DNA of 29,239 nucleotides from Levilactobacillus zymae (GTDB taxonomy: Bacteria; Bacillota; Bacilli; Lactobacillales; Lactobacillaceae). Position numbers and translations under genes: made by a program. The stretch covers positions 1 through 29,239 of the forward strand of contig NZ_JAVLAS010000006.1 in the NCBI RefSeq assembly GCF_032190635.1, in the 5' to 3' direction. Below, in pieces: positions 10,674 to 23,071 of this stretch. The notes under the pieces are model-generated. The model was not told the origin of the DNA, made no database searches, and was given only the letters and a program-made list of their open reading frames with translations. The first letter of the stretch is position 1. Each line of letters opens with the position of its first letter.

Positions 10674-10812
10674 TATAATGTAGACAGAAAAGGAAGCCTT
10701 GCGCTAACAAGACTTCCTACGCAAGCCGCTTCAAAGGCGGTGGCGAAGTTAATAAGACAGCATTAAGCTACCCTGTAACCTACCAAAGTTACGCAGGGCG
10801 GCTTTTTTATTT
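10674..10812 (+). ncRNA. Putative antitoxin RNA (RNAII) of the holin-like toxin locus
   Basis: A promoter with extended -10 (TGCTATAAT, TATAAT at 10674-10679) reads toward the toxin gene from the opposite side. The transcript would begin near 10686, contain GGAAGCC, ACTTCCTACGC and hairpin-forming segments, and end at the shared terminator at 10767-10808. It overlaps the toxin 3' end, and parts such as CTTCCTACGC can pair with the two CAGGAAGGTTT copies in the toxin leader. This is the layout of Fst/Lpt-type type I systems. Confidence 0.65.
10767..10808. terminator. Bidirectional terminator shared by toxin mRNA and antitoxin RNA
   Basis: GCTACCCTGTAAC pairs with GTTACGCAGGGCGGC with small bulges, followed by TTTTTT on the plus strand. 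The toxin stop codon lies in the T run, so both convergent transcripts end here. Confidence 0.75.
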
Positions 10813-18907: not shown

Positions 18908-19037
18908 TATAATAGGACACACAATACCTTTTTTCTTAAATTTACTGATTCTAGTATTAATCTTTTCTGTGATACATTATATTCGAAGAGAAGAAAAGGG
19001 CAACTAAGATATATAAATATGGATGCATGTTGCCTTT
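18908..19037 (+). promoter_or_regulatory. Promoter and leader hairpin of the 381-aa gene
   Basis: TATAAT at 18908-18913 with a poor -35. The leader of about 160 bases contains GGCAAC (18999-19004) pairing with GTTGCC (19029-19034) followed by TTT, 41 bases before the ATG. This could be an attenuator, and hence a control point for small RNAs. The ribosome binding site AGAAAGAAG is weak. Confidence 0.4.
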
Positions 19038-19077
19038 ATACTATATAAGAATAAAACTAGAAAGAAGAAAAAACTGA

Positions 19078-20223
19078 ATGAAATTCAAAAATATGGAACT
19101 GATTAAGCATTGGAATACATTAGAAAATAGAGCAATTGTGTATAATTTATACGATTCTGAGAATGTTACTGGGCATTCTCTGGAAGAAAAGATGGATTGT
19201 TGTAACCTCGCTAAGATAACTGGTGAGCCTAGTAGATGTGGAGTAGCTTCCAGAGGTGCTCATAAAGGATTACAAGTATTCTTTTCAACTGGTCATGAGC
19301 ACTCATCATATACGGTGCTAGAACTGACAATGAAGGTGTTAGGCTCGGACTTTGCAAACTTTGTTAAGCCTTTTACCAACTTTTTTTACAACGCTGATAG
19401 TAATGCTGATGCAGATTTGACAGACTTTAACGAGTCCTTGGTCGATGTATGTTCCGCCAATTATGGCATGGTATCAGTCTATGGGTCGATTAAAGACCCC
19501 GGCTTAAAGGCGTTCATCAAGCGGGATAAGGACGTATTAAAAGTGCTAAAAGCGGTGTATACTACTGCCTTGAGTATCTCATGGTACGTCAATCCAACAG
19601 ACCAAGAGTTACCATGTACACGCATGAGTTCCCGGGATATCTCCGAAAAAACAGGAGTGAAGGAACGGAAAGTTACCAACATTCTTACCATTCTTCGATT
19701 AATGCACGCCATTGCTGAAGTACCTACTAATCGATTCTCCAAGCCTTACTTCGAGCGGTACATCGATTCTGCTAAGGTTTGGATGCATAAGCCGGTATAT
19801 GTAGTTTTTCCTCTGGCAAAGGTTGATTGGTCACTGGTTAATACATGTGAATTTACTGCTAACTCAGTCATTAGTCAGTCATCCGTAACGTACTGGTTCG
19901 GTGATGATATCGCCCAAGAGGTATTTGTGGACAAGGTTAACCATTCCATTCAACTTACCTTAATGATGGCCTTCGGTGATATTATTGGATGTACTAATCA
20001 CTCTCTATCAGTTAAAACGGTCAAAGATACCGCATTGTCCATTGTCCAGAACGAGGTATCCGATATTATCCCGGATGAAACGGTTAGCAGCGCTTGGAAA
20101 AGTTTCCAGTTATTTCTCCCATGGTCTAGTATTAAGATGGTAACTAATTCTCGTGCTGAAGAAGAAAACAAGAATGGACTCGCTAAGCCTAATGAACGGG
20201 TACTTATCCCAGAAAGCAACTAA
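19078..20223 (+). CDS. Unrecognised 381-aa protein with central helix-turn-helix; candidate replication initiator
   Basis: I do not recognise this protein. The N-terminal 150 residues contain several cysteines (MDCCNLAKITGEPSRCG) and DFANFVKPFTNFFYN. About residues 180-215 read TRMSSRDISEKTGVKERKVTNILTILRLMHAI, a winged-helix-like segment of the type found in replication initiators and regulators. The C-terminus, including FQLFLPWSS, ends in a charged tail (RAEEENKNGLAKPNER). No signal peptide or membrane segment. It stands between a structured RNA region with spaced repeats and an array of small transcription units followed by parAB. That setting, together with a damaged repA elsewhere on the plasmid, makes a replication or copy-control role plausible. 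A transcription factor is the alternative. Confidence 0.7.
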   Translation: MKFKNMELIKHWNTLENRAIVYNLYDSENVTGHSLEEKMDCCNLAKITGEPSRCGVASRGAHKGLQVFFSTGHEHSSYTVLELTMKVLGSDFANFVKPFTNFFYNADSNADADLTDFNESLVDVCSANYGMVSVYGSIKDPGLKAFIKRDKDVLKVLKAVYTTALSISWYVNPTDQELPCTRMSSRDISEKTGVKERKVTNILTILRLMHAIAEVPTNRFSKPYFERYIDSAKVWMHKPVYVVFPLAKVDWSLVNTCEFTANSVISQSSVTYWFGDDIAQEVFVDKVNHSIQLTLMMAFGDIIGCTNHSLSVKTVKDTALSIVQNEVSDIIPDETVSSAWKSFQLFLPWSSIKMVTNSRAEEENKNGLAKPNERVLIPESN

Positions 20224-20241
20224 GAAAGAAGATATGTAAGA

Positions 20242-20484
20242 ATGTTCAGAGATATTTTTAAAATAGCGGCGGTTAGCCGTTGGTATCACCATGATAATCG
20301 AGTACAAAGGTCAGATAGAAGAAAAGCCCAGGGTAAGTCCCAACTCTCATACTCCGACTTGAAAACGCTTCGTAAGGCTTTCTTCTGGATATTTCTAGTA
20401 TCTATTTTTGCTGATTGGGGTATGGTCGGGGCAATCTGTGCCATTGCTTGGGTGATACTTTGGATTGTTGCAATCATGTACTAG
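20242..20484 (+). CDS. Small membrane protein of unknown function
   Basis: 80 residues from ATG 20242, 18 bases after the 381-aa gene, so probably cotranscribed. Residues 1-50 are basic (RWYHHDNRVQRSDRRKAQGK). They are followed by one or two membrane helices (AFFWIFLVSIFADWGMVGAI, AWVILWIVAIMY) reaching the C-terminus. The basic half would face the cytoplasm. A terminator follows directly at 20488. The ribosome binding site is weak (AAGAAGAT). No family recognised; the hydrophobic tail makes chance unlikely but does not show a function. Confidence 0.6.
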   Translation: MFRDIFKIAAVSRWYHHDNRVQRSDRRKAQGKSQLSYSDLKTLRKAFFWIFLVSIFADWGMVGAICAIAWVILWIVAIMY

Positions 20485-20487
20485 CCA

Positions 20488-20518
20488 GTCCCTACTCCCA
20501 TAGGTAGGGGCTTTCTTT
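20488..20518 (+). terminator. Terminator of the 381-aa gene operon
   Basis: GTCCCTAC pairs with GTAGGGGC around TCCCATAG, then TTTCTTT. The T tract runs straight into the first promoter-like unit of the array. Confidence 0.8.
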
Positions 20519-20520
20519 GT

Positions 20521-20637
20521 ACACTAAAAGTGTTATAATCTGGTTGTCCCAGAGTTAATCTACCTCTTGCTTAGATTTTATTCCAGAAAATCTTTGCCTT
20601 AAAAAAGTTCGCTAGTTCCTCGCTAGAGTGCTTTTTT
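20521..20637 (+). ncRNA. Array unit 1: promoter, short transcript, terminator
   Basis: The inverted repeat ACACTAAAAGTGT (20521-20533) abuts TATAAT (20534-20539); TG at the right place makes it an extended -10. A transcript of about 90 bases from near 20546 would end at the stem AAAAAAGTTCGCTAG / CTAGAGTGCTTTTTT (20601-20637). No open frame with a binding site. Confidence 0.5.
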
Positions 20638-20640
20638 ATT

Positions 20641-20733
20641 ACATGAAAAAATGTTAACATTAAGAGGCATGAGAATGCTCTTTCATTTACGGTTTGTGAG
20701 TCCTTACTCTCAGTCTGGTAAGGGCTTTTCTTA
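20641..20733 (+). ncRNA. Array unit 2: short transcript with GNRA hairpin
   Basis: ACAT..ATGT flanks the spacer before TAACAT (20655-20660), with TG in extended position. The transcript starts with GCAT-GAGA-ATGC, a GNRA tetraloop hairpin (from 20668), and ends at GTCCTTAC / GTAAGGGC TTTTC (20700-20729). About 60-65 bases, very like unit 5. Confidence 0.5.
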
Positions 20734-20823
20734 TACACTAAAAGTATTACAATATATATGCGTGTATAATACGCATCATCTTCTTCTGAGTCCTCATTTT
20801 CTGGTTAATGGGGGCTTTTTTAT
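20733..20823 (+). ncRNA. Array unit 3
   Basis: ATACACTAAAAGTAT abuts TACAAT (20748-20753). The transcript has a 5' hairpin ATGCGT-GTATAAT-ACGCAT (20758-20776) and ends at GTCCTCATT / AATGGGGGC TTTTTT (20790-20821). Confidence 0.45.
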
Positions 20824-20924
20824 TGTCTGAAAAGTGTTATTATGTAGTCGCTTCATATACATCTACAATATGTAGTAATTGGTATTACTAAGAAGCCCTC
20901 CTTCTGCCCACTGAGGGCTTTTTT
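20824..20924 (+). ncRNA. Array unit 4
   Basis: TTGTCTGAAAAGTGT precedes TATTAT (20838-20843), TG in extended position. The transcript of about 75 bases ends at AGCCCTC / GAGGGCT TTTTT (20894-20924). Contains TACATCTACAATATGTAGTA, able to fold weakly. Confidence 0.45.
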
Positions 20925-20926
20925 AT

Positions 20927-21018
20927 TGTCTGAAAAAATGATACTATCAAGAAGCATGAAAATGCCCTTTCATGTATTGAGTGGTGGGCCCTTACTTATA
21001 TTCTGGTAAGGGCTTTTC
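20927..21018 (+). ncRNA. Array unit 5: paralogue of unit 2
   Basis: TTGTCTGAAAAAATGA precedes TACTAT (20942-20947). The transcript begins AAGAAGCAT-GAAA-ATGC, the same hairpin as unit 2 with GAAA in place of GAGA, and ends at GCCCTTAC / GTAAGGGC TTTTCC (20988-21018). Confidence 0.5.
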
Positions 21019-21020
21019 CT

Positions 21021-21134
21021 ATATACTAATTAGTGCTATCATGAACACCATAGCATTTCACCTCAAATACTACCTTCATCAATTTGTGCAGAGTTAAAAA
21101 GGCCCTCTAGTTTTATCGCTAGGGGGTCCTTTTA
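21021..21134 (+). ncRNA. Array unit 6
   Basis: The palindrome ACTAATTAGT (21025-21034) overlaps the extended -10 TGCTATCAT (TATCAT 21037-21042). The transcript of about 85 bases ends at GGCCCTCTAG / CTAGGGGGTCC TTTTATT (21101-21135). Confidence 0.45.
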
Positions 21135-21135
21135 T

Positions 21136-21268
21136 TATCTCTTTATAAATATACCAGATACATACGAATGCTACCTTATGAAGCTGTCAGGGGCACTCAA
21201 AGTATCTCTTGGGAATTATAAAGTAACGACAAAAAAGGCCCCTACTCCGCATAATATAGGGATTTTTT
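21136..21268 (+). ncRNA. Array unit 7 (weakest)
   Basis: TCTCTTTATAAATATACC may serve as promoter but lacks the shared palindrome. A stretch of about 110 bases ends with CCCTA / TAGGG followed by ATTTTTT (21240-21268). Preceded by AAAAAAGG. It may instead be only a terminator for converging transcripts. Confidence 0.3.
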
Positions 21269-21340
21269 GTGTGCATTCTGCTTCATTTAAGCGGACAAGT
21301 ATACGTCTAAAAAGTGAACGTGTCGTCTGAGCGCGCCATA

Positions 21341-21709
21341 CTATTTTCCCTTAGTTCGGGCGTCTCTACTCTCCAGAATATCTAATTGAAAAGTAAATTT
21401 TCGCTTGTCTTCAGCGTCTAAAGAATCAATGAGATAGTCTAATGCGTTATCAATGGCATCTTTTTGAGATTTATATAGACCAATTCCAGATAAGGCTTCC
21501 GCTTTGTTTTTAATATGGTTGTTAATTCTAACGTTAGCATAAAAAGTAACAGAATCTGCAACGCTTTTTTCCAGTTTTGATGGTTTGTAATTATTACTTT
21601 TGAGGTCATCTGTAGTAAAGGTGTTTTTGGGTTTAATATCTTGTCCACGATCAAGTGGGTCTGTCTTTGGTTGTTTCTTCAGATTGGGATTGTTTAATAA
21701 TCCGCTCAT
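21341..21709 (-). CDS. parB: ParB-like small partition protein (putative ribbon-helix-helix)
   Basis: 122 residues, start two bases after the ParA stop, so translationally coupled. The N-terminal half is polar and probably disordered (NNPNLKKQPKTDPLDRGQD). The C-terminal half has a strand followed by helices (VTFYANVRINNHIKNKAEAL, QKDAIDNALDYLIDSL), which fits a ribbon-helix-helix DNA-binding fold. Small ParB proteins of this build occur with type Ib ParA; they bind the centromere and repress the operon. Recognised by position and architecture, not by a strong sequence motif. Confidence 0.7.
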   Translation of the reverse strand: MSGLLNNPNLKKQPKTDPLDRGQDIKPKNTFTTDDLKSNNYKPSKLEKSVADSVTFYANVRINNHIKNKAEALSGIGLYKSQKDAIDNALDYLIDSLDAEDKRKFTFQLDILESRDARTKGK

Positions 21710-21711
21710 TT

Positions 21712-22518
21712 CTATTCACCAGCCATTCTGCTAAATATTTCATCAGTAACGTTGGAGTATACGTCTTGAACTGCTTTATCAAACTGATCTTTAAATGTCA
21801 CCCCGGTTACATCATATCTTTTTAAGCGTTCCATATTTTTGATTGTTATGTCAAAAATATTTTCTTTTCCAAAGATATCGATTGCTTTAGCTAAGGTGCT
21901 CTTATCGACAGGAGCACCATTTTTCAGCAAAACTGGTAATATCCCTAGTAAATCTAATGTCGGAGCGTGGAATTCATTGATAATTTGATCTTGCATGTAT
22001 TTGATAAATGCTTGGGCACCCTGAAGCGATCTTTCCTGAGTTTGAAGAACGACAATTGCGTAGTCAGTCATATATAATGCGGTGTCTGTGATTAGGCTAA
22101 TTGTAGGTGGAACGTCGACCAACAAATAGTCATAGTCATCTTTCCACGGATTTATTAAGGTAGACAAGTATTTTACACGATCGGTGTAGTCAGAAATTAT
22201 ATTCTCCATATATCTAGGATATAAAGAAAAGTCAGCTGAGGATGGAAGAATATCTAAATTTTGGATAACGTTGATGATAGCCGGTTTGAGGTTTTTGTTT
22301 TTAATTGCGGTCATCAAGGTTTCATCAAAAGAAGTTACTTCACCACCGACGTTATTTTTAGTTTTTAAATATAAATTAGTTGCGTTAGCTTGAGGATCCA
22401 AATCTATTAATAGTGTTTTATACCCACGACGTGCCAACTCGATACCAGTCATTGTACTATTGGTTGTCTTGCCAGTTCCACCTTTAAAGTTTGAAAATGT
22501 TATGACTTTACTGTCCAA
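21712..22518 (-). CDS. parA: ParA-family partition ATPase (type Ib)
   Basis: 268 residues from ATG 22518, with AGGTGATAT upstream. The deviant Walker A KGGTGKTT is at residues 12-19 in VITFSNFKGGTGKTTNS. LLIDLDPQANATNLYL carries the A' motif and YDYLLVDVPPTISLITD the Walker B/switch region. The protein starts directly with the ATPase domain, lacking the helix-turn-helix of type Ia ParA, so it is of type Ib like its small ParB. It would move plasmid copies to both cell halves by ATP-dependent binding to the nucleoid. The operon reads left, toward the small-unit array. Confidence 0.92.
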   Translation of the reverse strand: MDSKVITFSNFKGGTGKTTNSTMTGIELARRGYKTLLIDLDPQANATNLYLKTKNNVGGEVTSFDETLMTAIKNKNLKPAIINVIQNLDILPSSADFSLYPRYMENIISDYTDRVKYLSTLINPWKDDYDYLLVDVPPTISLITDTALYMTDYAIVVLQTQERSLQGAQAFIKYMQDQIINEFHAPTLDLLGILPVLLKNGAPVDKSTLAKAIDIFGKENIFDITIKNMERLKRYDVTGVTFKDQFDKAVQDVYSNVTDEIFSRMAGE

Positions 22519-22574
22519 AATATCACCTCATAAATATGTAGTGTAATGCTCTTAAATCATAGCACAAAAATTAG

Positions 22575-22716
22575 TACATGTATACAAATACAAACGTGTA
22601 AAAGTAAAAATGTATACATGGGTTCTATGTAGGCTGCAATAAAGGCGTTTTGATCGAGTATACAAATACTAATTATTACATTATTACAAATACTAATGTA
22701 ATAATGTATACATTTT
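22575..22716. promoter_or_regulatory. parS: par operator/centromere region
   Basis: The upstream region of parA has ACAAATACTAAT at 22662 and 22686 (24 bases apart), an inverted repeat TATTACATTA / TAATGTAATA (22674-22703) overlapping the second copy, and several GTATAC(A) words (about 22581, 22612, 22658, 22706). Such repeats before type Ib par operons are where ParB binds as both centromere and operator. Confidence 0.65.
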
Positions 22717-23071
22717 TTAAAAAAGTGTTGATTTATTTTATTAAGAGAAATACAATTGTCCTTGTAAGTGAATACAAAAAAACACCCACCAATTGGAGTT
22801 GGTGAGCGCCAAACAATCTTATAATTTATAGATTATTATATCATGGCCGGTGCGATTTTTAAAGCCCTAGGGGACAAGCTGGGGTCTAAATCCAAGGGGA
22901 CACGTTTGCCAGTGCGACTTCAATAAGTCTGGCTATACCACAACAAGGTCATCTGTACGGCTGGGTGGTGAATGGTGAGCGCGACCATTAACGGCGTGGG
23001 TGGTAAAACGAAGCTTCGGCTTGGTGCCATTGATTAGTTGGTGATCGAACAAACATAAATACGTATCATCA

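Follow-up and report, generated by a model that had tools for sequence, protein, structure and literature searches.

The question raised by this locus is what could be encoded in about 650 plasmid bases in which terminators and promoters alternate in a regular series. The window, that is, the whole stretch of DNA that was analysed, is a single contig of 29,239 bases (G000:C6), and the series occupies positions 20487-21134, where six units, all on the + strand, lie between an 80-aa open reading frame (ORF) and a converging par operon. Every unit follows the same order, in which a hairpin terminator is directly followed by a promoter, about 64-93 nt and the next terminator. The region is best read as a plasmid tandem array of six independent non-coding small RNA (sRNA) genes, for the products of which base pairing in trans is the most likely mode of action, and a probability of about 0.72 is given to this reading. 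In the proposed organization, each unit would possess its own promoter (an extended -10 element in five of six), an RNA of about 64-93 nt and its own intrinsic terminator, the T tract of which would occupy the -35 position of the next promoter. The features of the region are listed below, with transcription and the RNA ends as we infer them.

19078-20223: gene of a 381-aa protein
20242..20484, + strand: 80-aa ORF upstream of the array
20487..20519, + strand: terminator 0, with its T tract at the -35 position of unit A
20531..20539, + strand: extended -10 of unit A, TGTTATAAT (TATAAT at 20534)
20546..20638, + strand: predicted unit A RNA, with unpaired AGTTAATCTACCTCTTGCTT, the hairpin AGATTTT-ATTCCAG-AAAATCT and a terminator
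20652..20660, + strand: extended -10 of unit B1, TGTTAACAT (TAACAT at 20655)
20667..20733, + strand: predicted unit B1 RNA
20748..20753, + strand: -10 of unit C, TACAAT, the sole one of six without TG
20760..20823, + strand: predicted unit C RNA, with a 5' hairpin, a ATCTTCTTCTGAG core and a terminator
20835..20843, + strand: extended -10 of unit D, TGTTATTAT (TATTAT at 20838)
20850..20924, + strand: predicted unit D RNA, with CCCTCCTTCTGCCC in the terminator arm and loop
20939..20947, + strand: extended -10 of unit B2, TGATACTAT (TACTAT at 20942)
20954..21018, + strand: predicted unit B2 RNA, with the hairpin GCATGAAA-ATGCCC-TTTCATGT and a terminator
21034..21042, + strand: extended -10 of unit E, TGCTATCAT (TATCAT at 21037)
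21049..21134, + strand: predicted unit E RNA, with core CACCTCAAATACTACCTTCATCAATTTGTGCAGAG and a terminator
21231..21272, strand not given: hairpin outside the array, taken as the terminator of the converging par operon
21341-21709, minus strand: DUF5388 protein of the par operon
21712-22518, minus strand: ParA of the par operon

Terminator 0 presumably ends the upstream operon, and units B1 and B2 are paralogues located 287 bases apart. A preliminary description of this DNA had proposed tandem terminator-promoter units in which each T tract touches the next promoter. Both points hold, since six such junctions are present on the + strand with the coordinates and -10 words that it gave, TG precedes the hexamer by one base in all promoters except that of unit C, and the T tract begins 22-23 nt ahead of each of the six -10 words. 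Of the "six or seven" units counted there, six stand and the seventh does not, as no extended -10 follows the terminator at 21101-21128. The hairpin at about 21231-21272, offered as that seventh unit, is also found in plasmid stretches that lack the array (L009; matches over query 751-821) and is probably the terminator of the par operon. The start had been set at 20480, next to the 381-aa gene; this position overlaps the stop codon of the 80-aa ORF, which intervenes.

Neither upstream gene defines the array. The 381-aa protein matched ten database proteins at E ≤ 0.001, with no known family and no Rep family among them, its gene matched two plasmid records, and its structure model is of low confidence (mean pLDDT 55). 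The 80-aa ORF, by eye a probable small membrane protein, matched 98 plasmid records by tblastn, 81 of them from Lactiplantibacillus, and had no annotated feature in 55 of the 60 rows listed from the PLSDB gene table, which is incomplete. In four Lactiplantibacillus/Pediococcus loci that were read (L121, L122, L123 and L124), a parA gene and a small ORF precede this ORF, and the 900 nt that follow it contain no terminator having an extended -10 at a distance of 20-24 nt. The array is thus not tied to the 381-aa gene or the 80-aa ORF. In another part of the window, an Rfam match to the RatA antitoxin RNA (10676-10764, + strand; 58.2 bits vs a gathering score of 49) marks a possible type I toxin-antitoxin locus on the array plasmid.

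The layout departs from chance expectation. A scan of 20480-21150 detected six terminators, compared with a mean of 0.72 (sd 0.77, maximum 3) in 200 dinucleotide shuffles, and the extended -10 pattern TGNTANNNT followed four of the six within the search span, compared with a mean of 0.05 and a maximum of 1; none of the 200 shuffles matched the real value for terminators or for terminator and extended -10 pairs. A second, stricter detector recovered four array terminators, two of which had TGNTANNNT at 20-24 nt, and across 400 kb of this chromosome the same detector found an extended -10 at this distance for 2 of 176 terminators; extended -10 words located 3-84 nt after chromosomal terminators numbered 28 in all in these 400 kb. 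A consensus scan of 19000-23000 gave no excess of sigma-70 promoters (15 found vs 14.1 expected) and predicted none of the six array promoters, to which it is blind because they have no -35 consensus.

The same seam recurs in related plasmids, from which, together with the window, 27 junctions were chosen by hand (ten loci in all, with a selection of the junctions in the fetched loci). TG is present ahead of the -10 in 26 of them, and the hexamer starts with TA in all 27 and ends with AT in 23 (AT by eye), with A at position 5 in 25 and T at position 6 in 26; as many are close relatives picked for their junction-like look, and as related plasmids do not provide 27 independent events, these figures describe the set and are no test. 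The T tract starts 21-23 nt before the hexamer, that is, at the -35 position, in 25 of the 27 (22 by script, and the B2 units of L002 and L006 and unit C of L055 by eye, the script having given an earlier T run), and a 17-nt spacer would place a -35 box on the T tract. The terminator has been lost to an insertion sequence (IS) at two junctions (F of L003 and B2 of L076), and at the B2 junction of L006 the T tract is kept and the hairpin in front of it is gone. A spacer palindrome was considered as a repressor site; it occurs in some junctions (ACACTAAAAGTGT) and by eye is absent from most of the 27.

A BLAST search with 20480-21150 matched 19 of 72,556 plasmid records, 18 from Levilactobacillus and one from Lactiplantibacillus, which correspond to about a dozen distinct arrays because many are near-identical types of L002, L001, L006 or L007. 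Two laboratory strains of Levilactobacillus brevis are among the carriers, ATCC 367 with an L002-type array (NC_008499) and KB290 with an L007-type array (NC_020822). A 28-base pattern of the E core was found in four contigs from three further species (L. tangyuanensis, L. mulengensis and L. hammesii). With strict filters, a covariance model of B matched 4 of the 397 genomes of the family, counting the own genome, and all four belong to a single genus out of 40. A model of E matched 6 of 35 genus genomes, own included, with one weak chance-like match; this match, in G337 (E 0.0027), seems to be an ordinary intergenic region and was rejected. No array was found in phage records, the sole matches being two records at window 21263-21300, beyond the array, and the exact E-core and A-core patterns, the two that were searched, had no match in viral contigs. 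Ten putative chromosomal relatives, fetched from weak BLAST matches in other genera, proved by eye to be single junctions or lone terminators beside ordinary genes. Single junctions of a terminator-like T tract with a TGAAAAAATGATATNNT-like promoter were observed between ordinary chromosomal genes of other Lactobacillaceae genera (L061, L062, L064 and L065, with L063 looser), and the terminator/promoter seam is thus not unique to the array.

The set of units differs from plasmid to plasmid. The following orders were read by eye with core anchors, W being the window array.

W: A-B1-C-D-B2-E
L002: F-B1-A-B2-E
L003: F-B1-C-B2-E
L001: altered B1-C-D-B2-E
L007: 5'-truncated A-B2-E
L006: B2-E
L005: A alone
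L075: E behind an F-like terminator
L055, 3540-5050 (own-genome contig C3): promoterless A-B1-C, IS30, E; a second array in the genome, with D and B2 missing
L004: C and B2-E on separate stretches
L076: A and B2-E with an IS in between
L120, 4780-4960 (one plasmid): F and a possible further unit with TGATAGTAG at the -10 position

Since either B1 or B2 can come after A, either A or C after B1, and either D or B2 after C, exchange appears to take place at the seam between units. IS elements bound or interrupt several arrays, and damaged units are found, namely, A of L007 and L055, in which an IS has removed the 5' end or the promoter, and E of L002, the terminator of which is replaced by other sequence. 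Among the loci scanned, unit D is present only in W and L001/L079. Plasmid recombination and IS insertion may have led to duplication, loss and reshuffling of units at the terminator/promoter seam.

Within the units, the cores are conserved above their flanks in the four families compared, A, B, C and E (D, with two near-identical copies, was excluded, and F was outside the comparison). Mean pairwise identity in the core, the 5' end and the promoter spacer was 0.93, 0.64 and 0.71 for E (seven copies), 0.97, 0.69 and 0.79 for C (four copies), 1.00, 0.87 and 0.67 for A (two copies), and 0.86, 0.55 and 0.68 for B (six copies). The unit A core is identical at 54 of 54 bases between W and L002, and a 34-base A anchor is exact in all six A copies aligned. 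As plasmids exchange DNA, the core identity may partly reflect recent spread between plasmids, though the flanks of the same units differ. The proposal of an sRNA cluster in the preliminary description gains support from this comparison, in which the units recur in varying combinations and preserve their cores and promoter words as the remaining bases diverge.

The predicted RNAs consist of a 5' part, a core and a terminator, and on average they fold more stably than shuffled sequences, with z from -1.6 to -5.9 for eight RNAs and from -2.1 to -3.9 for seven RNAs, the terminator hairpin contributing much of this energy advantage. In all four B2 copies that were folded, AUGCCC is predicted to be enclosed by an 8-bp hairpin, which includes one double change from U-A to C-G, and B1 folded by itself takes another form; one double change was also seen in the E terminator. 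Covariation in B was not significant, as the change on both sides seen in two pairs was also produced by 64 of 500 shuffles and the score was reached by 169 of 500, and unit C gave none under the alignment given, so the structural argument rests mainly on folding energies. Exposed CU-rich, anti-Shine-Dalgarno-like stretches, which could cover ribosome-binding sites, are predicted in A (CUACCUCUUGC), D (CCCUCCUUCUGCC) and E (UCACCUC...CUACCUUCAUC). Because these unpaired stretches resemble the 3' end of 16S rRNA, the RNAs are proposed to block ribosome-binding sites, as LhrC does.

The preliminary description knew of no described class with this layout, but clustered sRNAs in several copies are on record, among them LhrC of Listeria (PMC12101431). 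In Listeria monocytogenes, lhrC1-4 are clustered and lhrC5 lies apart, the RNAs are 111-114 nt in length, and their CU-rich motifs bind the ribosome-binding site of target mRNAs (PMC12101431). The array, as known at the sequence level, likewise consists of tandem units each with a promoter and a terminator, and CU-rich motifs are present in its predicted RNAs, the pairing of which was overall not above that of shuffles. In contrast, the LhrC copies are variants of one RNA regulated by LisRK, whereas the array is plasmid-borne, its cores A, C, D and E differ, and only B1 and B2 are clear paralogues. No Rfam family reached its gathering score in 20200-21400, and LhrC, a model of which we take Rfam to contain, is not among the six sub-threshold matches. 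The array would, on the best reading, work like the LhrC sRNAs but is no member of that family by the tests made; its unlike cores, plasmid location, unit shuffling and regular terminator/promoter overlap are distinctive.

Other known systems resemble the array in part. Streptococcal csRNAs are several small anti-Shine-Dalgarno RNAs per genome, which are CiaR-controlled and chromosomal; a set of several small RNAs with anti-Shine-Dalgarno-like stretches would be common to both, and the sequences were compared through Rfam only. In Gram-positive plasmids, antisense copy-control RNAs come from the strand opposite the rep leader, which they overlap; like the predicted array RNAs, they are small plasmid RNAs with terminator hairpins. 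Unlike an antisense copy-control RNA against a rep leader, however, the array has no ORF of at least 60 aa opposite 20490-21134, and arrays exist without the neighbouring 381-aa gene. The shuffled order and content of small units recall integron cassette arrays, but each array unit has its own promoter, the seam is a terminator/promoter junction, and no integrase is found beside the array among the window ORFs. The repeats are not those of a CRISPR locus, as each occurs in just two or three copies of 37-64 nt, which have diverged. A literature search, beyond the reach of which most subscription journals lay, returned no paper on such an array.

Several alternatives have to be weighed against the reading as sRNA genes. 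The region could be a transcription insulator, in which a stack of terminators separates convergent operons and the promoter-like words are incidental. The site between two convergent operons and the presence of six terminators or more would suit this function, but an insulator requires neither the TG kept at nearly every hand-picked junction nor cores conserved above spacers, and arrays also occur without a par gene in the stretch read, so this explanation is very unlikely. Small peptides or type I toxin genes are less probable still. The preliminary description had seen no translatable frame with a binding site, which needs qualification because nine ORFs of 20-59 aa overlap the region and a 15-aa B2 frame is present in W, L001 and L003; this frame is cut to 5-6 aa in L002, L006, L007 and L076, that is, in four of seven copies. 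No B2 frame as expected of a type I toxin-antitoxin locus is kept in all copies, the A and E cores contain no ATG, C and D were checked against the ORF list of the window, and inspection by eye revealed no properly spaced ribosome-binding site in the units. A third proposal adds to the preferred reading instead of replacing it: RNA polymerase could release one RNA, slide about 35 bp and start the next, so that the array would be made as a set. The regular spacing of 21-23 nt at the 25 listed junctions with a T tract fits such a relay, and post-termination sliding and reinitiation at nearby promoters are documented in vitro (PMC6978380, PMC6978322). This spacing may, however, simply stem from duplication of an ancestral junction or from compactness, polymerase can also reach extended -10 promoters directly from solution, and restart occurs mostly in the reverse direction in the system of PMC6978322; the addition is unlikely.

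The targets of the putative RNAs bear on a further alternative, in which the cores would serve as an antisense arsenal against competing plasmids and phages, aimed at their translation starts, with a unit set that varies as the rivals change. The search covered the non-chromosomal contigs of the host, contig C4, six public records with phage genes, partition genes and 15% of the chromosome, and no target was clearly above shuffled controls in these sequences. Contig C4 (L088, L089) of the same assembly, 38.8 kb in length, resembles phage genes for head, terminase and lysin proteins and also has a ParA gene; it is probably a phage-plasmid living beside the array plasmid, and such a rival in the same assembly would agree with an arsenal. 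The window form of E pairs with the C4-type parA start at -28.7 kcal/mol, compared with -28.6 kcal/mol for the best of 898 background starts, and this is the commonest parA type in the loci gathered, which were partly fetched by par flanks and are biased accordingly. The three starts that rank highest for D all belong to a single gene, found in three related phages or phage-plasmids (-28.4, -28.4 and -27.7), with 12 contiguous pairs by eye. On the other hand, for the E forms of L002, L001 and L075, the C4-type parA was matched or beaten by 15, 8 and 22 of the 898 background starts, one C4-type parA variant ranked behind 46 of them, and plasmid L007 holds both E and its would-be parA target. 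With shuffled cores, the best value of E against plasmid starts was reached in 4 of 28 and the mean of its best five, four of which are near-identical parA starts, in 1 of 28; that of D against phage starts was reached in 1 of 28, and these minima are unexceptional given the many tests. B2 also matches a site in C4 upstream of terS, and this match is poorer in three relatives. A single-bulge pairing scan of 13 sequence sets against six cores (78 comparisons) gave scattered low values, with 0/40 once (C vs contig C2, at a site inside a 385-aa ORF) and 1/40 twice (C vs C6 and B1 vs L099), and in a table against 16 start regions, no more than 1 of 60 simple shuffles reached the value in 9 of 112 cells, shuffling of this kind leaving the anti-Shine-Dalgarno run uncontrolled. 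Two groups of candidates were rejected: phage targets, where four of the six best start-region matches lay on contig C4 at the first ranking and controls failed to uphold them, and partition-gene targets, where the leads for E and D were weakened by shuffled cores.

An arsenal against rivals is accordingly improbable. The broadest version, a mobile recombining cassette array whose RNA-only effectors would silence translation starts in rival plasmids and in phages and whose fused seams would hand polymerase on from one unit to the next, appears more doubtful again. Control of replication, partition or incompatibility, as suggested in the preliminary description, is not borne out, because the arrays lie beside differing par types or on IS-bounded pieces without a par gene in the stretch read, and the complementarity to par starts is only suggestive.

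Independent non-coding sRNA genes, the products of which would pair with mRNA in trans, therefore remain the preferred reading. If expressed, the array would constitute a compact and transferable collection of dissimilar sRNAs that belong to no Rfam family, and the plasmids would be trading regulatory RNAs as modules. In addition, the regular overlap between the T tract and the -35 position would provide a natural construct for testing the restart of a terminating RNA polymerase at the next promoter.
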